Assembly (NCBI GenBank): GCA_947184155.2
Contig: CAMXCT020006565.1
Span: 93,771-157,770 of the forward strand
Length of the DNA stretch: 64,000 nt
Source: Cladocopium goreaui
Taxonomy: Eukaryota > Sar > Dinophyceae > Suessiales > Symbiodiniaceae
Reading direction: 5' to 3'
The notes under the pieces are model-generated. The model was not told the DNA's origin and ran no database searches. It was given only the letters and a program-made list of their open reading frames with translations. Made by a program: the position numbers and the translations under genes. Every line of letters begins with the position of its first letter. Within the stretch, counting starts at the first letter, position 1. Below are positions 15,056-61,007 of this stretch, piece by piece.

Positions 15056-15059
15056 GAGT

Positions 15060-15590: not shown

Positions 15591-15594
15591 CTGA

Positions 15595-18951: not shown

Positions 18952-19099
18952 TCAGTGTTGGAACTTCCAAAGATGCTGACAACTTGGCCCGTAGGACATG
19001 TTGAGGCAGGTCTGTTTGAAACCCTGACAAGGCAACTTTCGCAGCATATGTGGGTATCAAAGGTGGCAACTTGCTTGGGCTGGACTCCAGCTTGCGCCC

Positions 19100-24650: not shown

Positions 24651-25064
24651 TCATGTCATACCTCTCGTGAAATGTTCCAAATGATGCTTTTTATCTGATG
24701 TAATGGTGTCGTTCCATTCGTTGGTGAGCCCAAACGAAACTGGGTTCACTCTTTGCTGAGCACTAGCACGCTGCAGAAGCGCTCGGATCGCCCTTTGATG
24801 TTCGTCCAGGTCTTCCGGAGGAACCCTCCTGCGGACTTTCCTGTCTGGGAAGTTTCGTTCCCGCAGGTTGGTTTGCAAGGCATGTCCCGCTACATAAACT
24901 GCAGGTTGCTGGAATAAGACACGCTCTGCAAATCTGTGGAGATGCACTGTCCACTCAGCAAACATATGGCTGTGCGACAGTTGATTCCTGAGTCGCGCTT
25001 CCGTTTGATGGAGGCTCCCATTGGTATATGCCACAATCGCAACAGACTGTAGTTGGAAGGCCAA
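24651..25064 (-). CDS. Small ORF 3' of giant gene A, unknown
   Basis: The minus strand is open for 137 codons from a TTG and reads AEWTVHLHRFAERVLFQQPA, RRRVPPEDLDEHQRAIRALL and QRASAQQR; the composition is helical and rich in R and Q. There is no ATG near the start, so the real start or an upstream exon is unknown. The ORF at 51,917-52,396, in the same relative place behind giant gene B, has a similar pattern (arginine cluster, then 'E...RQL-x-LMHAS-x-QQ'), so the two may be distant homologues in the same gene family unit. Function unknown. Confidence 0.4.
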   Translation of the reverse strand: MAFQLQSVAIVAYTNGSLHQTEARLRNQLSHSHMFAEWTVHLHRFAERVLFQQPAVYVAGHALQTNLRERNFPDRKVRRRVPPEDLDEHQRAIRALLQRASAQQRVNPVSFGLTNEWNDTITSDKKHHLEHFTRGMT

Positions 25065-25079
25065 TCAAGTGGGCACAGT

Positions 25080-25640
25080 GTGGCTGTTTCTTTCCCGCTT
25101 GGTACCTTTGGGCTCCCGGTGCAGGGCCACGCCAAAAAGGCGAAAACCACGCAGAAGCATGGCCCCCCGCAAGCACCAGGCGCACCCTGGGGCGGTACCC
25201 TTTCCACACCATGCGCCGATGGCCAACCCAGGACAGGTGGATCCACTCACCGGGTGACAAGGAGACTGTGACCATTCATTTCCCGAGGAGATCCACTCAC
25301 CGAGTGACGTGGAAACCGTGCGGACACGGAGACCATTCATTTCACCCAAGATGATCACTCCTCAAGGGACGTGGAACACAGAAACCAATAGTCACCACAC
25401 AAGATGATCACCACCACACCCAAGTAAAGCCAACGCATGATGCCCCCATAGGTTCCCGGACTCCAGCTGCTACCGGAGAAGACGATCCAAGAAAGGAGTG
25501 GAAAGTCTTAGTCACCTTTTCAGTGACCCCAGTCCCTATGGAGCACAGCTCGGACCTTAGAGCCAAAAACAAGGTCCTTACTGTGGCCAGACTGTACATT
25601 GAGCCCACTCTCCCCGAAGGATGAGAGTGAACCGGTCGGT
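25080..25640. other. No gene; near-direct repeats
   Basis: Two copies of GATCCACTCACCG(G/A)GTGAC lie at about 25,240 and 25,290, each followed by a similar ...CCATTCATTTC element, and GATGATCAC recurs after them. Nothing coding is recognised. Confidence 0.5.
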
Positions 25641-25662
25641 GACCCAGTCGTTAGCGATCCCA

Positions 25663-25881
25663 TGTATCCCAGGGGGATACACCTGTCTTGCGACAGGCCC
25701 CTAACACTGTTAGGGAGGAACCGACGGTCTTGTCCACCGCGAGCTTAGCTACCCAACGGTGAATATTGACCGTTAGCCAACGGGTTGCCCCGTTGACCCC
25801 TCCTCGAGACAAGTCCCCAAGTCTCTAAGAGGTTCACCGACCTTGCCTGTTCCCCCGTGTCATCATTGGGTGTTGCTACCC
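25663..25881 (-). ncRNA. Chain of hairpins with GCAA tetraloops 3' of giant gene A
   Basis: Within about 220 bases, at least seven short perfect stems follow each other: 25663-25681 (8-bp stem), 25682-25697 (6 bp), 25699-25715 (6 bp), 25755-25774 (6 bp), 25778-25795 (7 bp), 25806-25825 (5 bp) and about 25868-25881. In three of them (25682, 25778 and 25868) the loop is TTGC on the plus strand. On the minus strand that is GCAA, a GNRA tetraloop, so the RNA is most likely in the sense of the helicase gene, about 240-460 bases after its stop. It could be a 3'-UTR structure, a processing or stability element, or the end of a mobile unit. A comparable chain 3' of copy B was not found. Confidence 0.55.
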
Positions 25882-26120
25882 TAGACACAAGGTAAGGTGA
25901 GACCCGTCGGTCCCGTACCACGTGTGTACCGATCGGTCCGGGAGAACCCCGAGATACCGCACGATCACCCAAGGATGTGCGCAAACACAAACGAGGGTGT
26001 GACATGAGGAGCAACCCAACATGTCAACACACGCCGACTAGGGGGTACCAAGGTACCGTGTTAATTCACGGTTCGTTAGGGACGGGGGCCTTCAGCAACT
26101 CCCCAGCGCTATACACCACT

Positions 26121-29100
26121 TTAACGTCCCCCCGGACCCTCTCGGGTCCACCTCCCCCTGTTAGAAGCATGGTATTGGGGACCCCATCCCCCTACCCACT
26201 TCTCGGGTGTGAGCCCTGCTTGAGAGGGAATGATAATTTCTAGAGTAGTGCGATTCGGTCCCAGTGGTTGGAGACCTCGCATCATGTATGGTTCAACAAG
26301 CCCTGTTGTATATCCATGGATGAGCTCCTGGAAACATCCAGCCATTTGAAAGTCTTCATCCAAACCAAGACGAAAACCAGGCATGTTTTTGGCAGCAAAT
26401 TTAACTGCCTGGAGCAACTGCTTTGCTCCCTCCACCGGAGTCTCGTCACAGGAACGTTTCGGGCACGCGATGTTAATTTCTTGTGGTTTCTGCGCATTCT
26501 CAGGAGCATTCTCGAGAAGTTTGGGAGCAATTTTGCTGGCCCAGCTGGCCGGGAACCATGCCAGTAGGGCAGAGGCACCACTCGTAAGGTCCACTAGCCC
26601 AGTCATGCGTCGATGCGGCCGATCTGTGACCAGGACTTTAACTGGGCCACTCGGCGCTCGACTCCGGTTCACCTCAGAGCTCTCTCGGGCCGAGCCAATG
26701 AGTTCAGACAGGATGGGCCGAAACCAGTACGTGGCATACAGCAAGCATTCAGTTTCTGGAGTCACCATGGATTCAGCCAATCTCATCAACGAGCTCATCG
26801 CCTGGGCGAGCTTCTCTGCCAAACGAATTGTGAGAGCCCTTGCCACCTGCAGGAGGACATCCTCCACCCTGGCAATTTGCCCGCGCAACCACAGTTCACA
26901 GGCCACACTCAGCAAGATGCGCGCAAACTTTTCTTGGATGGCAGTCAAAGACAACGTCAATCTTGCCTGTAGCCATAACGGTGGGAGAGCTCCAAGGTTT
27001 TCGGGTATGCAAAAAGGGTTTCCGTTGGGTTGGACATTAGAAATCAGGATTGCTAGCTTGTCAGCTGCACTCGCGATCTCATCTTCAGAGGGATCTTCAG
27101 CTGCATCAGGTATGGGTGGGCACCATGCAACTGTAGGGTCTTCTGGATCACTCTCGTCATCGGTAGAGGCTGCTTCCTCATCCGAGGAGGGGTCATTCAC
27201 TGTGTCTCCTGCACCCTCGGGGCTTGCGAGTTTCATAGACCCTGGATCAATCTGGCGATCCAATGTGTCCAAGAGGTCCGGTTGCAACCGATGGGCATCG
27301 AAATAATGAATACCCGGTATTACGACGAGTTGCCGATCCTGTATACCCACGTGAAAGAAGACCTTGTGGCCTCGATGTCGATGAACAAGTGCTGGGGACC
27401 CATTATAGGCTGCACACAGCCAGAGAGGAGATCTGTAACCATCAGCAGCATAACCATACAAGTATTCACGATCGATCGAGCAGGGGAAAAAACCGCTGGT
27501 CGTCAGCACATGGTCACGTGTGCGAGGCTCTAGCGCTGCAAGGACATCAAGGGGAAGACGTAACTTATCTCTGCATGCCACAACCAACCGATATCGTCGC
27601 CACGCTCGCGTGCCATTGATGGTCACAATCATGGCAATAGCAAGAGGGGGTTTGTCTTGGGGAATAAAAGGTGCCCCTAATCCCCAGTCCAGTATAGCAA
27701 TTTTGTCGCTGGGGTAGGTTGTAGGGCCATGGTACTGAATGTCTCGGTCTTTCAGTGTGAAGTATCCATAATGGTACACTCCCAGTGTCTGGGCCATGCC
27801 AATCATGCCTGCCATATCAAGAGGCGAGACAATATAGGTATGTTCAATGGCTCTTGTGAGCGCTACAGTTGCTCTCCCATAGCAGTCTTCACGCTCGTCT
27901 GCTGTTGCATCTCTGCGTCCTCCACTGAGAAACCCACAGCCTGTTTGAACAATGACCGCAATGCGTGCTGTTGCCCCCGCGGCAGAGGAAGTGGTGGAAA
28001 CTCTCAGCCCACCATACCACATAGACTGGAAGCCATGTTGGAGTAGCAAGTTGTGCACCGCAGTACGGTTGCATAAGACAAGCAGCTGCGAGGTCGCTCC
28101 CTGTTGCAAGTTGCGATAATAATTCTTCAGATAGGTGCAGAAGGCAACGACGTCCTCAACCGCAGCTCTTAGATCTTTAGGTGCATTCCACAGTACCGTC
28201 CGGAAACCTCCTTGTGCCACAGTGGACTCATGTGGCACGAAGTGTCCAATGTATATGTGATTGGGCTCGTGGAGGACTAACTCAGGATACCGAACTGCCA
28301 CGATAGCTTGGTAAGTCAGCATTGAGACCCGTGAGCTGTTAGGGAGAATGATACCCCAACGGTGAGGACCACATAGCCCGGCTGCTTCAAGGGTTGTGGT
28401 ACACTCAGGTACTCCAAACTCCTCTGGTGCTGTGGCAATCAGCAGGACTGCTAGAGCTGCTGCAATTAGGCTGCTGTGTGCATCCAGCTGGCACGAGATT
28501 CGGCAGTGAAACACCCGCCCTAGGGCGACAGGCAGCTCGTAGTCTTGCAGAGTGGATGTCCATGGGCCACTATGCGGCTTGTTTGCAAGTCTCAGCAGAC
28601 TAAAGAGATCTGACTCCGGATCTTGGCTCGCATCAGGCCAAAGCTGAGCTACAAGTGCTGCCATTCGTGCCGGTGGAAGATAGTCTCCTGGCCTATCAAG
28701 CGCTCTGAGCCCTAACGGCCGTTGCAGCAGTTTGCGTCGATTGGCAGCCGCTGCTCGACCTTTTGACAGCCCTCCTGGAGTTTGCCTGTGATCGCCAATG
28801 AAGACAGTGAGAGTTGGTTGTTGAATGGCAGCGAGAGCTGCGATCTCATGGTAGTTGCCATACTGTTGGCTTTCGTCCATGAAAGCTAGCCAGGTGCGAG
28901 AGATCCAATGACCAAAAGTGGAATAGCGCATCGCCATTTCAGCCGTGGCTGAGCCACCTGTTGCAATGAGCACATTCTTGTACGCAATGATTTTATTACG
29001 GTCACTGCACCGGACGTCAATTTTTGAGGCATATGCTTCTCCTTTACCTTCTTCCATGCGACCAATTAGCCTACCGAAGCTCCTGATTGTGGGGGGCGCG

Positions 29101-32039
29101 AGATCACTTAATTGATCCGCAAGTGCTTTGGCAGCTACATTTTCTTTCGTATAGACGATCGCAACAAAGTCCTTGAGTTCACAGCTCAGTGCAATGAGCA
29201 AGACCGCAAGGGACCGCGTTTTGCCAGCACCAAAGACCCCTGCAATACATAAGTCAGATCTACCTGTCAGAATAGCCAGCAACAGTGCAATTGAGACCGT
29301 TAAGACATGTCCATCACCGTGGGCTGCTAGAGGGAGGAGGTACTCACGGTAATAACTGTCATGGGCCCCATCCATCGAGATCGTGGCTGGTGTCAGGAAC
29401 CGGCTCAAGATTCTGACTAGTGCATCGGTCAGCTTCGTTTTGCGCTCGCTGGCCATGCGGCGAACAGGTATATGCGGCTGTACGATGCCCATGGCCAATG
29501 GTAGGCGCGACTGGTTAGCTTGTGCAAACACTAAGAGTTCATGGCGGCTGCGTGTGTCACCCAGGAAGGCTAGCTCTTCCCACACTACGGCCATAGACAC
29601 GTGTTCTTCAATGGGTTTCGGCCAGTCCTGTGCAGGATCAAAGTAACTCATTGTTTTGAGATACTGGTCCAAAAGTCGTCCACAAAACGTCCGCGCAATG
29701 GGTAGTGAGACGATTACAAGCTCTAGTAGCTTCGGGGCAATGCGTTTGATTGCTCGCTGAGCAGGGTTCTTGCTGGTTCCGCTGTGCATCACCTTTTCAT
29801 GTACCAGTAGTATAACACACCGCTGCTGAGTGTCTGGCAACTGGAGTACCCCTAGTAGCGCTCTGCCCGCCATCACGTTGGCTTCCAGGTTGCCTAGATT
29901 CCCAGCTTCACAGAGATCACGCGGCGAGGTCTTTGGAACATCCGAAGGTGCACTAAAGAGTAGGAGAGGGGCACCTTCCGTATGTAGGTGAATGACATGA
30001 AAATCAGCATACGCCTCATATTGGTAGGTGACCTGCAACCGTGTTCCAGTTTGTCCTCGATTCTTCTGCTGAGCTAGTTCTACACTGACCCAGGGCTGAA
30101 GGTGTTGGAGCTGCCGTCCAGCATGATAGGCGTCTAGTTGCGGAAGCACCATGTCCAGTAGGAAGATGAGGGTTCTTAATGAAAAACCACGCAGGAATTC
30201 CGCCAGTAAGTTGCGAACCAGCAACCCTCCCTCATCGTGGGATCCTCCTGGTGTGGGAATCATCGCAATCAGAGCTGCTTGTAGTTCAGCTTCCGTATCA
30301 GGCTGACCATCCCGAATGTCCCGGCCGACAATGGGTACTGTTTGTAGCTCAGTGTTCCCTTCTCCAGCTGCTACTAACAGAGTGCTTAGAGTCGTCTTGA
30401 GGTGCACAGGAAGGTCAAAGCTCACCCATGAGAGTACTCGCAGCAATCCCTCGCACCGTACCCCGTGTGGAATGACCTGAGGGGTGGTGATTTGTAATCT
30501 TTGAACTTCATGGACCCCTTCATCAAGGTCAATGAAGAGCAAGTGGCCATATGAGTGTTTGGCACGCCCACTCCATGTGGGGTGCCCTTCTATAAGAACC
30601 ACCTGATAATTGAATTCTGTCAGAGAGTCCGGTTTCCACACACATAGCCGGTCTTCCAGGCAGTGCACCAGAGTGACTCTGCGTTCGCCAGTGGCAAGTC
30701 GCATCATCTCTGGCGGCGTCGCAATTGCAGCAACTTTAGTGAGGCCTGGGAATGCAGCGAAATCACTCAGGATCTCGTGAACTGCAAGGCCCGTGTAGGA
30801 CCCTGCCGAGAACCCATAGACGTTGATGTCCCTGACACCTCCTGTATCCGCTGTAGTGACTAAGTGAGGAAAACATGACTTCAGGAAAAGATGTTTACCT
30901 TGCGGATGGTAACAACGAAAGATCTGCCTGATTGCTGTGGACCAGGTCGGGTGTGGTGGTCTGGCATGGGCTGGCCGGATATGCGCGGCCTCAATGAGAC
31001 GAATCGCTCTCGTGAGCAACAGTTGATGATCGGAGAAATGTTCAGGGAGGAAGTCTCGCCAAGCTGTCCATCCTTCTGCAGTGGAGAGTAGCTGGTAGAT
31101 CGCATATTCGTGCACTGTTTTGGTGAGGCCCAATTGGGTGACATGTGCTTCCCAATTATCTGTCATAGCGAGCGATGGGCCATACACCTTTGTTTGTGCC
31201 TGATTTTGTAGGAAAATATCATAGTCGTGTTCGCCACTGAGTAGGCCACCTCCTAATCCACTGCAGTGCACTTCAAGGGGTCGGTCTTGCATTGGGGCGT
31301 CATCTTGCCAGACTTCTGAGAGGGAAAAAACCCAGGATGCCCAGTCGTCAGAGCCCTTGAGTGCTGCGGGCAGCGTAGCAGCAGGTGTCCTTCCAATGTA
31401 GTTTTGTTTGGACAATTCTCCAACATCTATGGTCTGCTCATTGACAGTGACGTCCCACTTAGCCATCTCTCTGAAAGGTAACGGAAGACCAAACTTCAGG
31501 GGAGCTGCTTGCTGCAGCGATGTACACGAAGGTTCCGCTTGTTCCTTTCGTTGCCAAAGTCCACACAACAAAATTAGTTGAGCTTGGGAAAGTGGAGGAG
31601 GAGGCACTTTGGCATGCAGTCGCAGACCAACCACTGGAAGGAAATTGTGATGTAGCCATTGAGGCTTCCATTCTTGTGTACCAAATAAAGCTGCAGCCAA
31701 CGGCAACCAGCCATATTGGGCGAGGTCAGCGAGACTGCTAGGCATTCTTTTCTTGGCATTGGTGCCAAACCCATGCAGAATAACAGGCCGCATGTAATGT
31801 GGCTCGATTTCCATGGCCTGGTACATCTTGTCTCCTGGTAGCACTCGTACACTGACCTCACCTGGCAGCAGGCTAAGGGTCGGAAGGGCACCTTGCTCGT
31901 AGGCAGGCCGAGCCCATTTATGGAATGTTGGCTGTCTGCCTTGGTAGCCATCAAGGATCTTCCGTAAATGACCATGGCGCGGCCAGACTCCAGAGGCTGG
32001 GACAGGAAAAGTGACTAATCCAGACCACTGGCCTAACAC
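26121..32039 (-). CDS. Giant gene A: serine-hydrolase-like + SF1 helicase
   Basis: An uninterrupted reading of 1,972 codons. Residues about 250-545 form an alpha/beta-hydrolase-like domain: nucleophile elbow GFSAGS (409-414), acid candidate D463 in HCLEDRLCVW, and His candidates H495/H499 in KHSYGH. Residues about 900-1,420 form an SF1 (UPF1-like) helicase: Walker A GVFGAGKT (934-941), DESQQYG (1055-1061), GDHRQTPGG (1082-1090) and ATVALTRAIEHTYIVSP (1390-1406). The C-terminus has an acidic linker (SSDEEAASTDDESDPED) and a helical tail. There is no ATG at the 5' end: codon 1 is GTG, and homology to copy B continues upstream in another frame (32,033-32,590), so the ORF is the larger part of a longer protein with one frameshift. 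Helicase activity on RNA or DNA is expected from the motifs; the hydrolase substrate is unknown. Confidence 0.75.
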   Translation of the reverse strand: MLGQWSGLVTFPVPASGVWPRHGHLRKILDGYQGRQPTFHKWARPAYEQGALPTLSLLPGEVSVRVLPGDKMYQAMEIEPHYMRPVILHGFGTNAKKRMPSSLADLAQYGWLPLAAALFGTQEWKPQWLHHNFLPVVGLRLHAKVPPPPLSQAQLILLCGLWQRKEQAEPSCTSLQQAAPLKFGLPLPFREMAKWDVTVNEQTIDVGELSKQNYIGRTPAATLPAALKGSDDWASWVFSLSEVWQDDAPMQDRPLEVHCSGLGGGLLSGEHDYDIFLQNQAQTKVYGPSLAMTDNWEAHVTQLGLTKTVHEYAIYQLLSTAEGWTAWRDFLPEHFSDHQLLLTRAIRLIEAAHIRPAHARPPHPTWSTAIRQIFRCYHPQGKHLFLKSCFPHLVTTADTGGVRDINVYGFSAGSYTGLAVHEILSDFAAFPGLTKVAAIATPPEMMRLATGERRVTLVHCLEDRLCVWKPDSLTEFNYQVVLIEGHPTWSGRAKHSYGHLLFIDLDEGVHEVQRLQITTPQVIPHGVRCEGLLRVLSWVSFDLPVHLKTTLSTLLVAAGEGNTELQTVPIVGRDIRDGQPDTEAELQAALIAMIPTPGGSHDEGGLLVRNLLAEFLRGFSLRTLIFLLDMVLPQLDAYHAGRQLQHLQPWVSVELAQQKNRGQTGTRLQVTYQYEAYADFHVIHLHTEGAPLLLFSAPSDVPKTSPRDLCEAGNLGNLEANVMAGRALLGVLQLPDTQQRCVILLVHEKVMHSGTSKNPAQRAIKRIAPKLLELVIVSLPIARTFCGRLLDQYLKTMSYFDPAQDWPKPIEEHVSMAVVWEELAFLGDTRSRHELLVFAQANQSRLPLAMGIVQPHIPVRRMASERKTKLTDALVRILSRFLTPATISMDGAHDSYYREYLLPLAAHGDGHVLTVSIALLLAILTGRSDLCIAGVFGAGKTRSLAVLLIALSCELKDFVAIVYTKENVAAKALADQLSDLAPPTIRSFGRLIGRMEEGKGEAYASKIDVRCSDRNKIIAYKNVLIATGGSATAEMAMRYSTFGHWISRTWLAFMDESQQYGNYHEIAALAAIQQPTLTVFIGDHRQTPGGLSKGRAAAANRRKLLQRPLGLRALDRPGDYLPPARMAALVAQLWPDASQDPESDLFSLLRLANKPHSGPWTSTLQDYELPVALGRVFHCRISCQLDAHSSLIAAALAVLLIATAPEEFGVPECTTTLEAAGLCGPHRWGIILPNSSRVSMLTYQAIVAVRYPELVLHEPNHIYIGHFVPHESTVAQGGFRTVLWNAPKDLRAAVEDVVAFCTYLKNYYRNLQQGATSQLLVLCNRTAVHNLLLQHGFQSMWYGGLRVSTTSSAAGATARIAVIVQTGCGFLSGGRRDATADEREDCYGRATVALTRAIEHTYIVSPLDMAGMIGMAQTLGVYHYGYFTLKDRDIQYHGPTTYPSDKIAILDWGLGAPFIPQDKPPLAIAMIVTINGTRAWRRYRLVVACRDKLRLPLDVLAALEPRTRDHVLTTSGFFPCSIDREYLYGYAADGYRSPLWLCAAYNGSPALVHRHRGHKVFFHVGIQDRQLVVIPGIHYFDAHRLQPDLLDTLDRQIDPGSMKLASPEGAGDTVNDPSSDEEAASTDDESDPEDPTVAWCPPIPDAAEDPSEDEIASAADKLAILISNVQPNGNPFCIPENLGALPPLWLQARLTLSLTAIQEKFARILLSVACELWLRGQIARVEDVLLQVARALTIRLAEKLAQAMSSLMRLAESMVTPETECLLYATYWFRPILSELIGSARESSEVNRSRAPSGPVKVLVTDRPHRRMTGLVDLTSGASALLAWFPASWASKIAPKLLENAPENAQKPQEINIACPKRSCDETPVEGAKQLLQAVKFAAKNMPGFRLGLDEDFQMAGCFQELIHGYTTGLVEPYMMRGLQPLGPNRTTLEIIIPSQAGLTPEKWVGGWGPQYHASNRGRWTREGPGGR

Positions 32040-32590
32040 ACTCCACGCATGGCACCAATCTGCAGTAACACGAGTGGACGTGCCAAGCAGAGGAGAACAA
32101 GTAATCCACTAGCTACTGCCTGCTCAACATCTGCAGGTGGATACGTGGTAGCAAGGTAGGCTTCAACATGCCTGTGGTAAGCACGAGTAATGACGTGGGC
32201 TACTTCATCAGGATCCGTGTCCGAGTCCTCCAAGGCAGTGACGGGTACAGGGCTCTCATGACCCGAAGCTAATACAATGACCAGACCCGCATTGATTTCA
32301 GTGAATGCCTCACTCACAAGGATGACTCCTTTGGGCCTGCACGCACTGGCAGTTTCATGCCGGGGAAGAGTCATTGCTGCTAGACGTCGCCCGCCGAGAC
32401 ATGCGGGGACTCGGGTCTGGCGAATCACCATAGTCAACCTCGTCTGCCAAATTGGCATAGGTGAGGGGAGGGGCTCGTGGTGGGTCAGCTTTTCGGATAG
32501 CAAGATTGTCCGCACTATGCGATCTACTATTGGGTGACCAGAATAAATTACACGAATCAGAACCATTCTTGAAGCCAAAAACAGCTTCAA
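32033..32590 (-). pseudogene. Giant gene A, frameshifted N-terminal part
   Basis: The minus strand reads KGVILVSEAFTEINAGLVIV, matching AVLLATEAKAELNAGLIIV of copy B (residues about 327-345), and continues through a variable acidic segment to EAYLATTYPPADVEQAVASG. At about 32,092-32,101 a single missing base throws it out of frame; the next frame gives SPLLGTSTRVTADWCHAWSV, matching LTPLLGCKARTPLDWTHAWA of copy B, and leads into the main ORF. Homology to the first 300 residues of copy B, including the DSD-bearing domain, fades upstream of about 32,500, so the 5' end seems truncated or strongly diverged. Confidence 0.65.
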
Positions 32591-32900
32591 AACTCCTCCT
32601 TCTTGGAAGCTTGATCTTGAACGGACATGGCATAAATACTCTCAGAAGAATGAAACTCGAAAAGGCTGCAGTGAAAAAACATATAAACATTTTAGACGAG
32701 ACAAGTTCAGTATAATATCTATCTAGTTGCCATACATGATCAAAACAAGATCATGTAAACCAAGGACAACACTATTTCCAGATAATGCCGTATTTCATAT
32801 ACCACACAAATCGCAACAATCCAGGCGCATTTTTCTCGGAGAGATCACGATTGATTCGGTGAGACAATACGTCTTTGGGCTTTGTAGGCATTTTATGACC

Positions 32901-33542
32901 TCAACCGCGAGTATTCGAAGCTTTCTTTTGCTTCTTATTCTTATATTCCAGAGCGTCAGAGAGAGGAAGTGTCCACAGTACGATTTTGCAGGTTTTCATG
33001 AATCCTTTTCGATCCGGAAGTGGATTGAAACCTTTTTCTTCCTCCAATTCCGCGACGAAGTTCATCAGCTGTTGCATCCACAGTTTCAATTGTTCCTGAC
33101 TGCTCAAAGATTGCTTTTCCTTGCACTTTGCAGCAACATTCTTTGATGCATCAGCAAGAAATGTCACTCGCAAAGGGAATTGCTCTGGCAAAAGATTTTC
33201 TCTCTTGATATACAGGATGTCAAATTGGCTCACTTTGACGATCCCTGTCATTGTGACATCAGCTATGACCGGTGAACCTTTCTTCGATTTTGTTACCTCC
33301 GCTTTGGGTTTTCGATTGTCCTGTAAAGTGTCGAAATTGAACACCAGCCATCCTTCTTCAATCATGTGATCCCAGAACAAAAAGCCGTCCACAGTCAAGC
33401 ATTCGTTCAAGTCAAAGAAGGACATCACAACCCGATTCAGATGATCATTTGACTTGTTGAACTCGTGCTGCTGGTTCAGAGTAGTACAGCTCATGAAATT
33501 GCCCTGACCTTCGCTGTCCAACCACAAAAGCTCAATAAGCAT
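32901..33542 (-). CDS. Orphan ORF cut by the Copia LTR, unknown
   Basis: The minus strand is open from inside the LTR; the non-LTR part begins at 33542 and runs 214 codons to a stop at 32901. It reads MLIELLWLDSEGQGNFMSCT, VMSFFDLNECLTVDGFLFWD, VKVSQFDILYIKREN, and a C-terminal helical segment LMNFVAELEEEKGFNPLPDR ending in a lysine-rich tail. The composition is that of a normal soluble protein. No family recognised. The LTR boundary falls at its first codons, so it may be the 3' part of a gene or of an older element that the Copia landed in. The other flank of the Copia (51,586 on) gives no obvious matching 5' part. Confidence 0.4.
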   Translation of the reverse strand: MLIELLWLDSEGQGNFMSCTTLNQQHEFNKSNDHLNRVVMSFFDLNECLTVDGFLFWDHMIEEGWLVFNFDTLQDNRKPKAEVTKSKKGSPVIADVTMTGIVKVSQFDILYIKRENLLPEQFPLRVTFLADASKNVAAKCKEKQSLSSQEQLKLWMQQLMNFVAELEEEKGFNPLPDRKGFMKTCKIVLWTLPLSDALEYKNKKQKKASNTRG

Positions 33543-34336: not shown

Positions 34337-34338
34337 TA

Positions 34339-34347
34339 CCCCCTTTT
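34339..34347 (-). promoter_or_regulatory. Polypurine tract of the Copia element
   Basis: On the minus strand AAAAGGGGG lies two bases before the 3' LTR. It is the expected primer site for plus-strand DNA synthesis and helps fix the LTR start at the TGG that follows. Confidence 0.85.
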
Positions 34348-34738
34348 GCTACGATTCCCATGCAGCTTGGCTAAGAAAGTTTCCAACATGCAGCACAATG
34401 CATTGTGTATGTATCCACATCATCCGCAAAACCATTGTGAGGATCCGCACACGAAGTCATCTCTTCCCAGCAGTTGCAGATGTATCAAAAATACCTGTGC
34501 ACGTTAATTATTCCTGTGTCATCGCTGTTGTCTGTGTCCGCATACTCATTGATGCAGAAAAGTTGAACTCAAAGTGCCAAGTTGAAATCACCTTGCAACG
34601 GATTCCATGCAGTCCGGTCCATCATAAAAGAAGTTCCATAGATTCTGCACAGAGCATCCATACCAGTGAGTTCCAGGCACATTGCACAAAAAGAAAACCA
34701 TAGGCTTGGGCATGCAATGTCTCAAAGACCTCCAGCAT

Positions 34739-42670: not shown

Positions 42671-42715
42671 GTCAGTCCCGTCATAGTCATTTTCGTATAG
42701 TCGTTTTCGTATCTG

Positions 42716-51916: not shown

Positions 51917-52396
51917 TCAATGATCATGGTAGCTTGCTTGGTTGCATTGGTGTAGGAATACGAGCGTTTTTCTCTGCCCAGGGACCAGGTCTATCCTCAA
52001 AGTGCACAAAAGAGGTTCTGGACAGGCAACTTGTGTCAGCTGTGTAAGGTCTTCAGTCCGGTGCTGTTGTACGCTCGCATGCATGAGCTGTAGCTGTCGA
52101 CTAATCACTTCTCGTTCTGTAACGTTGGCACGGGCTTCTAGTCGAATGCGCAGACTTCTTGAGCAACAGCAGGCTGTGCGAATGTCTCTGCAGTCTTGCT
52201 CGTTGATAACACCTGCAAGGAGTTCCGTTTGCTGCAATACGGCGTGGGTGTCTTCCAAAGTTCTGAGAGTGTTCGTCAGTCTGTACACATAGTCCTGCAG
52301 TAAGAGGAGATCCTGTGCCTCATTGTGAATCTGGGGTTCCTGAGGCAGGCATACTACTTCGTTTGATTGCACGGAGCTCATATGGTCGGGTGACAT
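51917..52396 (-). CDS. Small ORF 3' of giant gene B, helical, unknown
   Basis: 159 codons from an ATG at 52396: QDLLLLQDYVYRLTNTLRTL, LEDTHAVLQQTELLAGVINE, RIRLEARANVTEREVISRQL, LMHASVQQHR. It is strongly helical, coiled-coil-like in the first half, with a Cys cluster (ACCCSR). No family recognised. It shares position, and weakly the 'arginine cluster - E..R - AS-x-QQ' pattern, with the ORF at 24,651-25,064 behind giant gene A. Both may therefore be members of a downstream gene that travels with the giant gene. Confidence 0.45.
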   Translation of the reverse strand: MSPDHMSSVQSNEVVCLPQEPQIHNEAQDLLLLQDYVYRLTNTLRTLEDTHAVLQQTELLAGVINEQDCRDIRTACCCSRSLRIRLEARANVTEREVISRQLQLMHASVQQHRTEDLTQLTQVACPEPLLCTLRIDLVPGQRKTLVFLHQCNQASYHDH

Positions 52397-52834: not shown

Positions 52835-55166
52835 TTATTGGAATTGTTCGTGTGGTGTAGTGCGAAGGTCTCGACTGCTACTGGCACCACTCGCGCTCGC
52901 AGTGGCAGAGGGTGGCTCACTACTCTCCGCAGGTTTCATCATTTGGGCTATGAGCGGGTGAGTATGCTTATCGCGCAGGATGCGTGTGATTTCGCGGGTG
53001 AATGCGGCAGGGTCATCAACTAATCGCTTTGCTTCCTCCAGTGGCTTGTCTAGAACAATGGCAATAAGCATTTCCCTGCCATCTTTGTGGATGATGGTCG
53101 GTCGTCCAGCTTGTATCTCGACAAGGATTGCTACTGCCTTGTTTTCGCACAGAGTGCGCTCCCATTCTTTCAGTGCCCTTTGCGCTAGGTATCAGTCTGT
53201 GGTGGGGCTTTCAGGGCAGCTGGTGTTCCTAACGCTTGTATGAAGGGGCTGTCCGGAGGAATGGGGGGCGGAAAATGCCGAATGGCCGATATGGCACGCT
53301 GAAGGTCATCTGCCTGTACTTCATAGGAAGTGGTCGTTTTTTATTTACTGCAGGTTCGGAGTCAGCCCATAGCTGTTCCAGCGTATATCCAGGTTTTGGT
53401 TCCATAACTTGCGGTTCCACACTGCATGATGGGACCATTGAGGCGCGTCATGGTTGATTTCAACAGAGTCTCGTTTCATGTCGTATTCCTTGAGCATATC
53501 GTCTAATTCTTGCAAACTAGCAGTTCTGTGAATGCAACATTGTCTGACAGCGCCATCGATGTGGAGTGGCCATCCTACTGGCATGTGGGAGTCTTCCAGG
53601 AGCCCATCGCCATTTTGCTCTATGATTGTACCCAACATGGGGACATCAATAGTTGCTTTCAGGCTGACTTGTGCGCGTTTGCACTTCCATGTATCAGGTG
53701 CCAACAGGCCTCTGCTAGCCAACAGCTGAAGCGACTGGAATTGCGGTTGGTCAGTCGCTGGTAACACTTCTTCTTTGATGACTAACTTGAGACCATGAAG
53801 CGGTTGGGCTTGCTCCTTGTGAGGGTCTTGAGATTGCTGAGAGGTAGGGTCCTTAGGTGTTGTGTCCTCAAACCAAGTAGGGCGGACTGACTGGACTCCT
53901 ATGGGGCTGCCAGAACTCACAGTTTTGATGCTTTCTCTGCGTAGGCTATGATAGACAGGCGGGATCATCCATGCTGGCACAAAGACTGTGATGAACTGCA
54001 CATTCCAAATGACCTGCAAATTCTGCGGCTTCACTTCAGGCGTGATGCATCTTACCTGGCCATCGATCACTCTGGTATATGACTCAGAGCGGTCAAAGGA
54101 TGCTGTGACTTTCAGGCCTGAGTAAAGTTCTCTGAACCAGTATTCCTTGAGCATCAGAAGGAAAGATGAGGTGCCCTCACTTCCATTACGTGTCTGGCTG
54201 GCATTAACAGAGTTACCATCCATTCAGCTAAGAATTCAATCATCTTGACTTCAAGTTTGGGGAGGATGGCTTGAACTGCTCGGAGGGCGCCTGCAATGTC
54301 CGGAACATGTTTACGTGAGGGAAGTCCTACTGTGCGCTTGGCGTACTCGTCCGCAAAATAAAGTCTGCACAATTTTGAGACCCATTGGCTCGGTTTCTCC
54401 ATATCGATGGTAATTTTGGCAAAGGGCCATGGGTCTGGGAGCGTCGATAGGCAATGCAATAACTCAGAGGTGAGGTCTGCTGATATTACTGGGAGGGCTT
54501 CTCCTTGTGGGCGATAATCAACAGGAGGTCCAACCATGCCTTTACTTCTTTGCGTGTGGGTGCGGGCGGCACTGTGCACAGCTTGGATGGTGGTTTCGTA
54601 TTGGTTGACCATAGCTCTCAGGTATTTACATGCGCGGACAGCTGCTTTTCTTGTGCTCGGGCATCCTCTGGCTGGTTCTTGGCGGCTACTGCAAGAATGT
54701 CCCTCGCTTCTTCTTCTGGCGACCGTTTGGGCTCCGCATCAGGTGTAGGTGCATCAGGAGCGGTACCTTGAACTGGTGCCTCTGCTGCGCGTGGCAGGTG
54801 GTCTGTTGGGTGTATTCGCCATCCATCAAAGAAATATATGCCAGGCAGGGACAGGATCTCCTGGTCTGGGCCTGTCTGCGCTACTACATTCCCGGTGCGT
54901 GCTTTATAGAGAAAGGGAGATGTTGCTTGGGGAGCCACTTGTGTTGGGTTCGTAAGCCTGCTTGAATTTCTTGGAAGCGCGCTCTGTCCAACCAGCGAAG
55001 GTCTGACCCTCGGACCAATATCAAACGGTACCTTGCTCGCTTTACCTCATCAGCATGCTGATCGTAGTATTGGTTGGCGATAGCGAGGGGCGGGTATTCC
55101 CAGTTTGGTGGTGAATTCAGTGACCAACGGCTTAATTGCGCAAGATTCTCTTGTACTGGGTCAGGG
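52835..55166 (-). pseudogene. Giant gene B, C-terminal part, multiply frameshifted
   Basis: Past the stop at 55167 homology to gene A continues in other frames. PPLAIANQYYDQHADEVKRA and RYRLILVRGS (about 55,100-55,000) match PPLAIAM...RYRLVV of A. LSLPGIYFFDGW (about 54,830) matches VIPGIHYFDAH. MLKEYWFRELYSGLK with QVIWNVQFITVFVPAWMIPP (54,223-53,345) matches YWFRPILSELIGS...LLAWFPASWASK. Further frames follow: GYTLEQLWADSEPAVNKKRP (about 53,400) and RALKEWERTLCENKAVAILV with MLIAIVLDKPLEEAKRLVDD (53,190-52,835). At least four shifts separate these pieces. The full protein would have exceeded 2,600 residues. Confidence 0.6.
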
Positions 55167-55253
55167 TCAAATTCCGGCCACTTCCAGTGACCAACGGCTT
55201 AATTGCGCAAGATTCTCTTGTACTGGGTCAGGGTCAAATTCTGGCCACTTCCA
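55118..55253. repeat. 67-bp tandem duplication that truncates giant gene B
   Basis: CAGTGACCAACGGCTTAATT and the following 47 bases are repeated head to tail (units 55118-55184 and 55185-55251) with one mismatch. Since 67 is not a multiple of three, the second unit read by the minus-strand gene is out of frame and produces the TGA at 55167. With a single unit the reading would pass into LNSPPNWEYPPLAIAN, homologous to gene A. Confidence 0.9.
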
Positions 55254-58200
55254 TGTCGTTTCTCCCCTCCGTAGGCCCCCGATGCCGTAGGCGATGGTGG
55301 CAATCACCTGTGCCATGCCCATGAGCCCCATCATGTCCAGAGGTGAGACTAGCAAGGTTAATGATTTGGACCGGGTGAGTCCTACAGTGATTCTGCCCAG
55401 GCAATCTTCTGTATCCTCTGTAGGAGAGCCATTGGAGTAATATTTAGTGTTGAGAAAACCAATGCTGGGCTGAGCCACGATTGATACCTGTGCTGTTCCT
55501 CCGGCTGAATTGGCGATTGTCTCGACACGCAAGGTACGCACATAGTCTCTTTTGAGCACGGAGCGATTCAAGTTGTTCTTATGATCAGTTGCTGTGGTCA
55601 TTGTAAAGAGTCCATCCGCAAATCCAGCATTACAAGGGAAGGAGGTGAGGACCTCTGACACAAGAGTCTCTAGGTCAGTCGCTACCAAACCGTGTTTTCT
55701 AGCATTGGTATCCCAAAGCACTAGCTGAAACCCTGGTGGTTTGTCTGGTAGTCCTCCCGAGGCAAAACTGCCTAGTTCCCATAGGCCATTTATCTGTCTG
55801 CAGAGGGCGGGGTATCTTACTGCAACCACTGCATGGTATGTAACAGGGCTAACTCTGGAACTGGAGGGAAGCATTAACCCCCAAGCATGGATGTCACTCA
55901 CACCAGCGGTTTGGGAGTTTAAGGTTGCTTGTATGTCCCCAGCCATGGGCAGGAGGGTAGCGGCATGTTGCAAGATCCAGGCAAGGCGCACAAGAGACCG
56001 TGGAAGGTTGAGAACAGCACCCTCCAGCAGTTCCGGTTCTACGAAACGGGAGTGCCGTCGCATAGTGGGCTGCGTTGCTTTAAATACGGCTTGGAGGCCT
56101 GGAAGAACAGCGCTGGCTACTTGGAGATCTTCCTCATCCTGTGGCGATAGCTGACTTGTCCATAGCCGGCCTAAAGTGGACTGCCCTCGTTTGAGAATTT
56201 GACTAAGAGTCGTCAGACCTTCATTGGCCGAACCATCTAGCAGTCGAGTCATAGCATCGGCAAGGGTGGCTGGCGTGTAATAATTGCGGTTGCTTCGCAG
56301 GCCATGCTTTTTGGCGAGCAGTAGTTGTCGGGAGCGCTTTGCGTTGCGAGCTGCCCGATCAATGCCGCCGGGTGTCTGCTCTGAGTCTCCTGTCCACAAT
56401 ACCAGAGGTTGCTGCCTCAGCAGGCTGATAACTGCAATTTCTCGGTCAGTGCCATACTGCTGGCCTTCATCAATGACCAGGAGGGAAAGCTCTTGCATAA
56501 AACCACCCATTGTGGACCATTGCATGGTAAGATCCTGGGCTACCGTTCCCCCGGTGGCTAAGATTAGCTGACACTTGTGCAACATTTGCCTTCTTTCTTT
56601 GGGGTGGATATCAAATTTTGTGTGGGAGTAACTGCTTTTGTTGCGCTCTTGGTCTCCCACCAGCCTACCTATGCGCCCAAACACCCCCGACGGGGGGTCG
56701 AGCCATAGGAGGAGGTCAGCAAAAGATCTAGTACCGGAGTTCTCTTTACAAATGAACAATATCTTAAGGCTGTCGGTGGTATCGATCTCAATCAGCGCCA
56801 GGATAAGGATTGCCATCGATTTCGACTTGCCTGCTCCGAAGAGCCCTTGGATGCACAGATCGAGCCGGTTGGTGAGCAAAGCCATTGTCACTGCACAGAG
56901 TGTGCCTAAAACATGTCCGTCAATTTCAGCAGCAAAAGATAGCGCTGTGGAGCGGGTCCAGGGGTGATGCTCGCCTTCAACGTGACATGGAGTTAGCACT
57001 AGGTGCAGCAACTGACCGCACAAATGCAAGAAATGTGATCTTTTGTTGCCCTCCATTCCCTCCACTGCTGTTTGGACATTATAGATGCCTAGTCCCAGGT
57101 GATACCTGCACGGGGAGGTTTGCGCGACAGCTGTAAGCTCGCGGGTGGGCTTGGTACATCCAAACATCCACATTGTGTGGAGAAAAAAGACCTTTGGAAC
57201 CGGACTGTTTTGCCCCTGGACTGTTGCATCAATAGGGTCCAGGCATTGGCCAGAATCAGTGTACAAGTCTTGGAGGGTTTCAAGCTGTTCCTTTGCAAAG
57301 AACTTAATGGCTGGTACGGTGAGGAAGGCGACCTCAATGAATTTAGGGTTACATTGTCTGTATATACGTGAGGCTGCCAGCTCATCCTTCTTTTTGGCTG
57401 CACGCGGTGTGATGGCGAGGACCAAACCAAATAGGACTTGGAGGTCATCTCCGTCATCAGCTGGTGCTTCTGCTGTGCCAACCATGGCGATGAGCCTACC
57501 CGTGCCAATGGGGCTGACTTTGTGATGGTGCGCATCGCTGGCAAGTAGGCTAAACACATCAGTTTTACCAAGGCTTGGATGTCGGAACGCGAATGCATCC
57601 TGTCCGCCTTTGACTCTCCAGTGGCCAAACTCGCTGCCTTTGAAGAGGAACTCCAGGGCAATGGGTTGTGATGGCTGTCGAACCGGTCCTGCACTTTGCA
57701 TTGTTAACCCTGTTTCATTATAGCCTTCATTAGGACTGAGCATGGGCAGGTAGTAGTCTAACATGTAGACAGCCATGGGCAGGGGTAGGGTACCAAGGAA
57801 CTGTTGGACCATGGTGGTATAATTATGCAAATTGGCCCTTGAGGAGATGGTAACCGTTGCCAACCCGGCTAGGTATTGGGTAGCTTCTTGCTCAGTTTTG
57901 ATCTCTGCGTTATGGACAGCAATTTGAGCAACCAGTGCCTGTGTTGTGGTTTCAGGTAGCTCGCACATTTCCGCTAGCTCACGCAGGAGTTTTCTGGCAG
58001 TTCTTGGGAGCTCAAAACTGCACCATGAGATCAGACGAAGAGGAGCTTGTGAGTACACTTCAAAGGGGAGTACCCCTGGGATGCCTTCCAGCTGTTCCAT
58101 ATCCGGTCGTCCTTCTGGGAGGGCAACCCTAGTCCAATGCGAGTAGTTATGCTGTGCAGTGCCAAGGTACGCTCTCCATCCTGTGACATGCGTGATTTTA

Positions 58201-61007
58201 AAGCCTCGTTGCTTAAGCAATTTGATGTCATGGTTTGACGGGTTCCAGACACACAGCTTGTCATCCGCATGGTGGATGAGATGAATCTCTCTCAGCTGTG
58301 ATGGGTTGTATGTTGTTAGCAACGATGGTGGCAGCGCAATGGCTGCTAGCACTGTTGTACCATCAACATCTGGGAACTCTGAGAGGATTGTTTCCCATAC
58401 CATTCCTGCATACGAGCCAGCGCTGTGCCCTCGGATGTTGAAAGAGCCTATCATATATCCTGTCAATCTGAGGTAGTCCGCTGGACGGATTTCAGGGGGC
58501 AGGCAGACTCCGACCAGAGGATGTGCTACCAGTAGCTTGGTAAAGAGTCTCAGACCATGTGTGTACCCAGGCCATGGTGGTTTCCTATGCGCTGGAATGA
58601 TAGGGCAGAAGCGCAACAGTTTCATGGCTCGACTGATGATCTGTGCTTGTAATTGGTTCGCTCTGGGCATTCCTAAAACACGGCACCAGAAGTGTGCTCC
58701 GATGGGAAACATGGCGATGTGCAGTAGCAAATATTCTTGCGTGTGGGCAGTGCCTGCTACTGTGCCAACTCTTGCATTCCAATCGTCCTGTTTGCTCAGG
58801 GATGGCCCATAAACATGTGCTTCCTTTCTACAAGCCATTAACACATCCCAGTCTTCATCAAGCTCTCCTCCACCCAACCCAGTGCACTGAACTTCATTGA
58901 GTTGCCAGGAGGTGTTATCCATGACTGTGATTTTCCAGTCTGTGTATTTGGGGTCATTATGGCTGGCAAGCACCTCATTGATGGCAAGCTCTGCGTTGTT
59001 AGAGTCAACGTTCAGTCGTCGCTGGAGCGCTTCGAGCAGGGGGAGGATGGGGGCGGTGGGAAGCTTAAGGCTCGCATGCTGACCACAGAAAACAACGGCA
59101 GGCTCGCAATCTTTGGGCCAGGGTGTATGGCCATTACTGCTGTTGGGGGCTTCGACTGGCGTCCAGAGGCTCTGGAGTAGCAGCACCTGTGTCGGGGTAA
59201 GGCTTCTGTTTTGTGGAACGTGCGGCTTGACGACTAGCTTACCCCCTCTAATAAAGTCGCAACCTGTGGGGTGTGTCCATAAAGGGGGTGCATCTTCAAC
59301 TCCTATGAGCGACACAGCTAGCGGTTGCAGACCTTTGCTTAGCCACTGTTGGAGTTGGTGCCCTAGGCCTACTTTACTCCCATGGAAGGCGTGTAGAATT
59401 GGTGGCAGGCTATACCCTATAGTCAACTCCTTACTTTGGAACAATTTGTCTCCTGGAAGGCAGAGGATAGGGAAGTCGGCTGGGAAGACTGACATAGGGG
59501 AGAGTGCACCTTGCTCGAAGATGGGGCGTGCCCAGGTAAGGAATGGCGGTGTCCGCTCGACAAAGTCCGGTCTAAGATATCGTCCATCACCATGGCGAGG
59601 CCATTCTCCTTGCTCCGGTATGGGGAAAGCAATGGTTCCAGCCCATTCACCTAGCATTGCCCATGCATGTGTCCAGTCAAGCGGAGTTCTAGCCTTACAT
59701 CCTAGTAGGGGGGTGAGCAGTAGCCCACCTCTCATCGCTTCTACAGGGTCTTCAGGCACGGCGGTTGTCGCTAGGAAGCTGGCTCGGCTTTCTCGAAGTG
59801 CGGTGACCCAATCCTCCGCTGTTCTGCGGTTGGCAGGGTGGGCTATTCGTCGCGCCTTGGGGGCAGGTGCATTACTCGGCGAGGAGCTTGGTGCAGTGAC
59901 GGATGGCATGCCTGCTTCAGGGGTTGCTTGGTCCATGTCCACATCAGCTGCCTCAATGGGGATATGTCCTGTCACAATGATCAGGCCGGCATTGAGTTCT
60001 GCCTTGGCCTCCGTGGCGAGGAGTACTGCTGGGGGGCACTGGTTAGAACTGGCCATTATGTTGTGTTGCATTGCTGCGGCTCTACTTGTCTTATCCGTCA
60101 TAAGATTAACTAGTTCAGCTATCTCAAACAACGAGGTCGGCACGCAGTCAGAGTCAATGAGGGCAAAGTTTACTGTGGGAAACATTAGGCACAGTGCCTC
60201 CAAAGCTGCGGCACCAGCCCAGGTATAATGGACCTGGTGTAAACCTGTATCAGCATGAATGGGAAAATGAATAGCAGTCGTTTTCTCACAGTAGGGGCCA
60301 GTTACTGTACATCGGCCTTTGATCCAGGGTGCAAAAAGTGGCCAATAGGCTGGAGGATCAGTGCCTGGCAGCTTGCGATTGTCCACATACACATAGACAG
60401 TGGCATACTCTGGTAACCATGAGAGATTGTCTATGATCCACTGGAAGAGCGTTTTGTGATGTACCTGGCTGGCTGCTGGACGTTGGATGCCATTCCCTTC
60501 ATCTATCATGAGTGCAGGGTATGTCGTGGGTGCCCTGGGCATGCGACAAGAGCCGACATCATCCCATTTCCACCATTGTTTGAGGTCGTCCATGCCGAGG
60601 GGAGTCTCAATCTCTTTCTGCGAGAGGAAGAGTTGGTCAAGCTGATGGCTTAATTGTGTGACTTCCTGTACATCGAGGAAATCGATAGGTTCAGCAATTT
60701 CCCACTGTTCCCTTGGAGGAGGTTCGGCCCCTTGCTGAAAATACGGAACGTCATCATCTGTATCGACGTCAACTGTTTCGATAGCGTCAAAGTATTCTGT
60801 GTCGCTGTCCATGGACACATCCTCAACTGCGTTATCCGAAACGATTGGCTCTGTTGGTTCGATCTCTGTATCTGAATCATCAGGGTCAGGCGACGTCAAC
60901 GAAATGAATCTATTTGATGTCATAAGCTGTTGCATCATGCTGACGCCGGGTTGACCCTGAACAGCCGGTACCCGGATGTCAGGTGCCAAGCGACCGGCCG
61001 AAGGCAA
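55167..61007 (-). CDS. Giant gene B: DSD-domain + serine-hydrolase-like + SF1 helicase
   Basis: 1,946 open codons; the first ATG is codon 24 (60938), so that start is likelier than the TTG at 61007. Residues 35-90 are acidic. Residues about 185-345 form a domain with VYVYVDNRKLP and FALIDSDCVPTSLFEIAEL (281-299); DSD within a hydrophobic strand recalls the DxD of GT-A glycosyltransferases, but this is a guess. Alpha/beta-hydrolase-like part: GHSAGS (860-865), D915 or D916 in HHADDKLCVW, H953/H956. Helicase: GLFGAGKS (1388-1395), DEGQQYG (1513-1519), GDSEQTPGG (1540-1548), LGRITVGLTRSKSLTLLVSP near the end. About 35-40% identical to gene A by eye. The stop at 55167 results from a 67-bp tandem duplication. 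Confidence 0.75.
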   Translation of the reverse strand: MPSAGRLAPDIRVPAVQGQPGVSMMQQLMTSNRFISLTSPDPDDSDTEIEPTEPIVSDNAVEDVSMDSDTEYFDAIETVDVDTDDDVPYFQQGAEPPPREQWEIAEPIDFLDVQEVTQLSHQLDQLFLSQKEIETPLGMDDLKQWWKWDDVGSCRMPRAPTTYPALMIDEGNGIQRPAASQVHHKTLFQWIIDNLSWLPEYATVYVYVDNRKLPGTDPPAYWPLFAPWIKGRCTVTGPYCEKTTAIHFPIHADTGLHQVHYTWAGAAALEALCLMFPTVNFALIDSDCVPTSLFEIAELVNLMTDKTSRAAAMQHNIMASSNQCPPAVLLATEAKAELNAGLIIVTGHIPIEAADVDMDQATPEAGMPSVTAPSSSPSNAPAPKARRIAHPANRRTAEDWVTALRESRASFLATTAVPEDPVEAMRGGLLLTPLLGCKARTPLDWTHAWAMLGEWAGTIAFPIPEQGEWPRHGDGRYLRPDFVERTPPFLTWARPIFEQGALSPMSVFPADFPILCLPGDKLFQSKELTIGYSLPPILHAFHGSKVGLGHQLQQWLSKGLQPLAVSLIGVEDAPPLWTHPTGCDFIRGGKLVVKPHVPQNRSLTPTQVLLLQSLWTPVEAPNSSNGHTPWPKDCEPAVVFCGQHASLKLPTAPILPLLEALQRRLNVDSNNAELAINEVLASHNDPKYTDWKITVMDNTSWQLNEVQCTGLGGGELDEDWDVLMACRKEAHVYGPSLSKQDDWNARVGTVAGTAHTQEYLLLHIAMFPIGAHFWCRVLGMPRANQLQAQIISRAMKLLRFCPIIPAHRKPPWPGYTHGLRLFTKLLVAHPLVGVCLPPEIRPADYLRLTGYMIGSFNIRGHSAGSYAGMVWETILSEFPDVDGTTVLAAIALPPSLLTTYNPSQLREIHLIHHADDKLCVWNPSNHDIKLLKQRGFKITHVTGWRAYLGTAQHNYSHWTRVALPEGRPDMEQLEGIPGVLPFEVYSQAPLRLISWCSFELPRTARKLLRELAEMCELPETTTQALVAQIAVHNAEIKTEQEATQYLAGLATVTISSRANLHNYTTMVQQFLGTLPLPMAVYMLDYYLPMLSPNEGYNETGLTMQSAGPVRQPSQPIALEFLFKGSEFGHWRVKGGQDAFAFRHPSLGKTDVFSLLASDAHHHKVSPIGTGRLIAMVGTAEAPADDGDDLQVLFGLVLAITPRAAKKKDELAASRIYRQCNPKFIEVAFLTVPAIKFFAKEQLETLQDLYTDSGQCLDPIDATVQGQNSPVPKVFFLHTMWMFGCTKPTRELTAVAQTSPCRYHLGLGIYNVQTAVEGMEGNKRSHFLHLCGQLLHLVLTPCHVEGEHHPWTRSTALSFAAEIDGHVLGTLCAVTMALLTNRLDLCIQGLFGAGKSKSMAILILALIEIDTTDSLKILFICKENSGTRSFADLLLWLDPPSGVFGRIGRLVGDQERNKSSYSHTKFDIHPKERRQMLHKCQLILATGGTVAQDLTMQWSTMGGFMQELSLLVIDEGQQYGTDREIAVISLLRQQPLVLWTGDSEQTPGGIDRAARNAKRSRQLLLAKKHGLRSNRNYYTPATLADAMTRLLDGSANEGLTTLSQILKRGQSTLGRLWTSQLSPQDEEDLQVASAVLPGLQAVFKATQPTMRRHSRFVEPELLEGAVLNLPRSLVRLAWILQHAATLLPMAGDIQATLNSQTAGVSDIHAWGLMLPSSSRVSPVTYHAVVAVRYPALCRQINGLWELGSFASGGLPDKPPGFQLVLWDTNARKHGLVATDLETLVSEVLTSFPCNAGFADGLFTMTTATDHKNNLNRSVLKRDYVRTLRVETIANSAGGTAQVSIVAQPSIGFLNTKYYSNGSPTEDTEDCLGRITVGLTRSKSLTLLVSPLDMMGLMGMAQVIATIAYGIGGLRRGETTWKWPEFDPDPVQENLAQLSRWSLEVAGI

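Follow-up and report, generated by a model that had tools for sequence, protein, structure and literature searches.

In this study, we analysed a stretch of dinoflagellate DNA of 64,000 nucleotides (hereafter the window) and found an open reading frame (ORF) of 1972 codons with a GTG start at positions 26121..32039 on the (-) strand. On balance, this ORF is probably what remains of ORF2 from a mobile (or virus-derived) element that is undescribed and present in high copy number. Among the roles that the first-pass annotation had suggested, an unrecognised element of mobile or viral origin, with this protein at its core, fitted best. This reading draws on the many close relatives of the ORF, the recent spread indicated by the relative P0001, the decay and truncation of the copies, the co-occurring second ORF and the absence of a name for the family in the libraries searched. 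Mobility itself we infer, since no polymerase, integrase or element ends were found.

Under an independent-base model, an open run of 1972 codons has a chance probability of about 10^-37. The G+C content by codon position (0.62/0.46/0.50) differed as in coding DNA. The translation contained GFSAGS (S411), HCLEDRLCVW (D463) and KHSYGH (H495 and H499) as well as GAGKT, DESQQ, GDHRQTPGG and ALTRAIEHTYIVSP, and the open chain of about 2,000 residues with hydrolase-like and helicase motifs that had been described earlier was thus present. Judged by its longer relatives, the ORF is a fragment and not the whole protein. It is the longest unbroken part of copy A, a remnant of the giant ORF2 at 24651..32531 (-), which was delimited by tblastn with P0002, P0008, P0012 and P0013 and by reading by eye. 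Tblastn showed copy A to be 5'-truncated at about 32531, inside the linker of the N-terminal domain, and the DNA upstream of this point had no match to any relative. At the other end, the stop codon (24651-24653) was located by eye right after the last residues common to the relatives. The tblastn matches ran in the frame of the ORF from 32528 to 32358, in another frame from 32356 to 32099, and again in the ORF frame from 32096 to 26196. An interruption of about 1.1 kb (25094..26195, (-)), within which the 1972-aa ORF terminates, separated the matches to residues 2198 and 2199 of P0002, and the tblastn matches past it used two frames (25093-25025 and 25019-24654). This interruption may be an insertion or a non-canonical intron. 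Copy A was 99% identical to P0001 across 1,880 residues in tblastn, which indicates that the A lineage spread recently. A pattern that the 3' end of copy A has in common with the P0012 leader peptide matched the window once (0.09 expected), but the pattern had been drawn from that site and is hence uninformative. Among the repeat pairs listed, a weak direct pair (35 nt, 71%, 23954-23988 / 32552-32586) and a weak inverted pair (22 nt, 82%, 20424-20445 / 32586-32607) were observed around copy A.

The second copy that had been noted at 35-40% identity was confirmed in the window as an ORF of 1946 aa at 55167-61007 (-), but its identity to copy A was lower than estimated, namely 29-30% overall, with 33% for the helicase and 32% for the hydrolase portion. 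By tblastn, with the end at 52835 set by eye, this copy C is a giant ORF2 remnant of a second lineage at 52835..60938 (-), and it comprises the N-terminal domain with DSDCxP/NAG letters, the S-D-H domain, the helicase and the C-terminal part. Its frame changed near 55186, 54911, 54660, 54160 and about 53400. A 67-bp tandem duplication (55118-55253, 98% identical), whose length is not a multiple of 3, covers both the stop at 55167 and the frame change at about 55186. ORF H (53345..54223, (-)) is a C-terminal piece of copy C, to which P0023, P0037, P0053 and P0060 aligned. The window thus holds, within 64 kb, two copies of different lineages, both broken; neither encodes a full protein as it stands, copy A being truncated, interrupted and frame-shifted and copy C carrying several frame changes. 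Downstream of copy C on the same strand, the translation gave an ORF of 159 aa (51917..52396, (-)), possibly a third ORF of the element. Two 92-bp direct repeats (78%, 52558-52771), each with an identical 32-base core, were also observed after the copy C stop. The G+C content was 0.53 in copy A, 0.52 in copy C and 0.51 in ORF I, compared with 0.45 at 1-20000 and 0.46 at 34339-50768, a difference that favours the mobile-element reading.

Protein searches returned at least 17 relatives with ORF A, among the matches listed, and 45 rows with ORF C, 44 of which were new. The longest relatives, P0015 (2767 aa), P0016 (2726 aa) and P0023 (2707 aa), start 366-400 residues ahead of the ORF A start, residue 2 of ORF A corresponding to their residues 374, 367 and 401, respectively. 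A-lineage relatives extend about 147 residues beyond the last homologous residue of ORF A (P0002). These alignments suggest that an intact ORF2 would be a protein of about 2,700 aa in which a glycosyltransferase-A (GT-A)-like domain is followed by the hydrolase-like S-D-H domain, the SF1 helicase and a C-terminus that is both long and variable. The order of the N-terminal DxD/NAG domain, the S-D-H domain and the helicase recurred in four lineages with 23-30% overall identity. This order, together with the near-invariant catalytic letters described below, agrees with the earlier proposal that both halves of the protein have been under joint constraint. A tree built from 31 of the 35 A2 alignment rows, in which the root and the long branches are unsure, separated the A lineage, the C lineage, lineage X (P0015 and P0016) and the very long branch of P0061 (23% identical). 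When the C-terminal third was compared in 14 relatives, 45 positions were common to three lineages, and none was recognised by eye as a nuclease signature.

The members of the 90%-identity clusters, which are predicted proteins and not counted genomic loci, summed to at least 2,396 for the 17 matches listed with ORF A, including 29 in lineage X (P0015-P0017), and to 3,599 for the 44 further matches with ORF C, to which P0061 contributed 1. The biggest clusters were those of P0007 (1,018 members), P0037 (801), P0001 (517) and P0018 (496). These cluster sizes suggest a high copy number. No name for the giant-protein family was found in any library searched; NCBIfam gave no match for four proteins, and none of the 59 pattern matches in GTDB genomes was confirmed as a relative. 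The family was described in no title or abstract opening found in the literature, the coverage of which omits most subscription papers and all preprints.

Upstream of copy C lies ORF I (61616..63226, (-)), which has 536 aa when read from a TTG; its aligned relatives start further in. It consists of a conserved N-terminal domain, a proline-rich middle and a coiled-coil-like end. We found at least 103 relatives with 37-96% identity, some of them on contigs of about 2 kb, with clusters of up to 274 members among the matches listed. No Pfam family reached the threshold in 20 members, and comparison of ORF I with Pfam and PDB gave chance-level matches only, several of the coiled-coil type. The gene model P0014 joins the start of ORF I (82% identity across 211 residues) to a helicase of the A lineage, which indicates that ORF I lies upstream of an A-lineage gene too. 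In a tree of 71 rows, covering the 69 of the at least 103 relatives that were long enough, the window ORF I grouped with the ORF I of P0014 in one shallow, well-supported clade. Their neighbouring ORF2s come from different lineages that are about 29% identical. These results suggest that ORF I is likely the ORF1 of the same family as the giant ORF2. Given an ORF I identity of 82% despite an ORF2 identity of about 29%, the two may not be paired in a simple way. Either ORF I is common to the lineages, or the elements carry ORF I, a C-type ORF2 and an A-type ORF2 in tandem. The minus-strand order in the window, that is, ORF I, copy C and then copy A beyond a copia-like insertion, hints at the tandem arrangement.

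The insertion between copies C and A is a copia-like LTR element at 33523-51587, with LTRs at 33523-34338 and 50769-51587 (96%) and a RVT_2 match at 2.4e-15. It contains a gag-like ORF with a weak match (43028-44617, (-)) and a pol ORF (36917-42670, (-)), the C-terminal tail of which carries letters that we take to be methyltransferase-like. A LINE-like element (44641-50332, (+); RVT_1 3e-39, Exo_endo_phos 2.9e-8) is nested within it. An extract of a report on Symbiodinium describes its Copia elements as being without DNMT domains (PMC5890265). A minus-strand frame of 251 codons (32901-33656) spans the outer LTR edge. Elsewhere in the window, the ORF at 17106-18515 had a weak reverse-transcriptase match (RVT_1, E 0.0012) and is followed by a frame at 16810-17202 that, by eye, is presumably RNase H-like. 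A TCATAAA tandem array of about 32 copies was observed at 13771-13992. Rfam and tRNA scans of the window gave no match.

Some results count against the mobile-element reading. Pfam detected no reverse transcriptase, polymerase, transposase or integrase model in ORF I, ORF2 or their relatives, and the interruption of copy A, if it is an intron, may favour a host gene. No convincing terminal repeats were found among the pairs listed for the copy A region or in the repeat search that also gave the LTRs; copy A lacks its 5' part, and copy C extends in the direction of the window edge. A host multigene family spread by retroposition of mRNAs is the strongest rival. In it, copies A and C would be decayed duplicates or retro-pseudogenes, and intact members would serve a cellular function. 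Conserved catalytic residues beside damaged copies, as well as the possible intron in copy A, are consistent with this explanation, and dinoflagellates are described as forming retrogenes in extracts of two reports (PMC6050394 and PMC12014239). However, spliced-leader relics in the window were near chance, with 6 matches, all with 3 mismatches, against 3.35 expected (9 of 100 shuffles reached 6). No poly-A tract was seen by eye past the stops of A and C (to 23900 and 51500, respectively), and a neighbouring ORF I in the same orientation would be unexpected if single mRNAs had been retroposed. We regard a retroposed host family as a serious possibility, albeit one on the unlikely side.

The next rival is an endogenised viral genome or segment, with ORF I as a structural or packaging protein, ORF2 as a replicase-like polyprotein that combines helicase and modifying domains, and the polymerase located elsewhere or lost. 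The two-ORF layout and the large multi-enzyme protein with an SF1 helicase would suit such an origin, as would the weak Viral_helicase1 matches in ORF A and in 2 of 18 members, and an extract of PMC10235124 reports endogenous RNA viral elements in symbiotic dinoflagellates. Nevertheless, neither a polymerase nor a capsid match was obtained for ORF I, ORF2 or their relatives. Three scans of IMG/VR gave 2, 72 and 0 pattern matches, none of which was confirmed as a relative, and PHROGs, a collection restricted to viruses of prokaryotes, had no match below E 0.2 for four proteins, the two rows above this value both belonging to P0061. In addition, thousands of members exceed the counts generally known for endogenous viruses. 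A viral origin of this kind is quite unlikely in our estimate.

The giant protein of the putative mobile element carries an SF1-type helicase core at ORF residues 900-1440 (27720..29342, (-)), with motifs I (GAGKT), II (DESQQ), III (GDHRQTPGG) and VI (VALTRA). Conservation was counted over the rows with letters at the respective column of the 35-row alignment A2. The Walker A lysine of motif I, K940, was found in 30/30 rows. Motif II retained E1056 in 26/27 and Q1058 in 27/27 rows, and the GDxxQ of motif III retained G1082 in 24/25 and both D1083 and Q1086 in 25/25. In motif VI, T1395 and R1396 were each present in 25/25 rows. Pfam matches were below the cut-offs: ORF A matched AAA_19 (E 0.0016; 19.1 bits, cut-off 25.1), Viral_helicase1 (0.014) and AAA_30 (0.017; 15.3, cut-off 27), and ORF C matched best the SF2 model DEAD (E 0.00038; 20.7 bits, cut-off 26), with AAA_30 at 0.077. 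P0002 matched AAA_19 at E 0.0046, below the gathering score, and no match was obtained in P0015 and P0016. Among the 18 members of alignment A3, AAA_30 was matched in 6, AAA_19 in 4, DUF433 in 3, Viral_helicase1 in 2, and DEAD and PhoH in a single member each. A precomputed AAA_19 domain (PF13245) is on record for P0004.

The first-pass annotation had proposed profile searches of the helicase and hydrolase parts. A PDB profile search with the helicase alignment A4 gave six chains at E <=10, consisting of two NAM7 chains over motif I (E 0.8 and 1.3), three coatomer chains (0.18-0.79) and a putative deoxyribonuclease (1.1). NAM7 was thus reached at E 0.8, but the three coatomer chains scored equal to or better than NAM7, and the hydrolase part matched nothing. 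ORF A alone gave one chance-level PDB chain, and the whole alignment A2 gave no PDB match. In a ranking test, profiles cut from A2, A3 and A7 were compared by hhalign with 75 E. coli K-12 proteins, which remained from 93 CDS of two E. coli stretches after 18 cut or short CDS were omitted. In this set, we took UvrD to be an SF1 helicase, PldB and YsgA to be alpha/beta hydrolases, and WaaJ and WaaO to be GT8 enzymes. UvrD ranked 1st of 75 for the helicase profile, with a score of 34.2 against 24.5 for the next protein and an hhalign probability of 13%, and its alignment spanned columns 143-246 of the helicase part, a stretch that takes in motifs II-III of ORF A. The ranking was positive for the helicase alone, and the helicase assignment is thus supported, whereas the hydrolase and glycosyltransferase assignments stay at the motif level. 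The sub-threshold Pfam matches, the AAA_19 domain of P0004, the rank of UvrD and the NAM7 match suggest that the full set of SF1 motifs noted earlier belongs to a genuine SF1 helicase, an assignment that is supported, not proven. The coatomer chains and the SF2 model as the best Pfam match of copy C count against it.

The S-D-H domain occupies ORF residues 262-560 (30360..31256, (-)) and was defined from alignment A5 and residue counts, with S411, D463 and H495/H499 as its key letters. The nucleophile GxSxG, the acid and the histidine stand in that order. In the rows of A2, S411 was present in 26/26, D463 in 25/25, H495 in 28/29, Y497 in 26/27 and H499 in 28/28, and P0061 also retained the S-D-H letters in A5. 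The domain had no Pfam match and, with A5, no PDB match. Among the 75 E. coli proteins, PldB ranked 7th for the hydrolase profile, or 3rd when only the core was used, and YsgA fell outside the top 8. Of the serine-hydrolase-like domain claimed earlier, the near-invariant S-D-H letters were confirmed but no profile similarity in Pfam or PDB was found, and its motifs alone suggest an alpha/beta-hydrolase-like assignment.

GT-A glycosyltransferases have a DxD metal motif and a NAG-type loop. In the 18 rows of A3, D165, E213, N219 and G221 were invariant and D167 and A220 nearly so, and the letters LIDSDCVPxxLFE ... ELNAG were invariant or nearly so. The corresponding stretch of copy C, LIDSDCVPTSLFE ... 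ELNAG, lies at 59627..60647 (-) and is GT-A-like at the motif level only (alignments A3 and A6). The N-terminal domain had no PDB match with A6 and no Pfam GT model among 18 members. For the GT profile, neither GT8 enzyme ranked 1st among the 75 proteins; WaaO was 5th when the core was used. By its motifs alone, the N-terminal domain appears to be glycosyltransferase-like. An ordinary SF1 helicase gene with coincidental hydrolase-like and glycosyltransferase-like letters and a structural N-terminal part of 900 residues would account for the missing profile matches of both domains and the unremarkable ranks of the hydrolases and GT8 enzymes, but the counts for S411, D463, H495 and H499 in lineages only 23-30% identical and the four invariant N-terminal residues make it very improbable.

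Under the mobile-element reading, ORF I would coat or package the nucleic acid of the element, and ORF2 would serve in replication, its helicase unwinding the template. The S-D-H domain may cut an ester or peptide bond, either for processing or to release an end of a nucleic acid. A base or a protein may be modified by the GT-like domain. The polymerase and endonuclease for copying and integration would come from the host or from LINEs of the same genome, which would account for 5'-truncated copies such as A. More speculatively, the family could form a new class among the mobile elements of eukaryotes. Such elements, numbering thousands of copies, would replicate by means of their own helicase-hydrolase-glycosyltransferase protein and would lack a polymerase or transposase of their own, and the GT-like domain may modify element or host DNA; we hold this broader proposal to be doubtful. 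Dinoflagellate DNA carries hydroxymethyluracil, and kinetoplastids sugar-tag that base to form base J. The GT-like domain could likewise sugar-tag hydroxymethyluracil in dinoflagellate DNA; an extract of a Breviolum study states that the sugar step of base J has not evolved in dinoflagellates (PMC11071213). If the copy number and mobility hold, elements of a class unnamed in the libraries searched, with this combination of enzymes, would make up a notable part of the genomes of some protists. Such elements would then offer a concrete handle on the growth of giant genomes. Three enzyme sites are testable, namely S411/D463/H495-499, K940 and the DSD of the N-terminal domain.

The giant protein resembles alpha/beta serine hydrolases in the succession of GxSxG, HxxxDxLCVW and a histidine block, but no profile similarity to them was detected. 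LINEs have an ORF1/ORF2 layout, and the family resembles them in the coiled-coil-like ORF I ahead of a giant ORF2 and in the 5' truncation of copy A. LINE membership was rejected, as no reverse transcriptase or endonuclease model matched ORF2. The RepHel protein of Helitrons carries an SF1 helicase in a large element-encoded protein, and an SF1 helicase lies within a large protein here too. Helitron membership was also rejected, as inspection by eye revealed neither an HUH nuclease nor a two-tyrosine motif and the H-x-Y-x-H block is not HUH. In endornavirus-type replicases, one very long chain carries both an SF1 helicase and a glycosyltransferase. The giant protein likewise has an SF1 helicase and a glycosyltransferase-like domain in a single chain, but no RNA polymerase model matched, and it lies on a chromosome-like contig among retroelements. 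With UPF1/NAM7 and UvrD-type SF1 helicases, the giant protein shares motifs I, II, III and VI in order. It differs from them in being very divergent, with ORFs A and C and P0002 below the Pfam gathering scores, and in having its helicase within a much longer chain, of about 2,700 aa.
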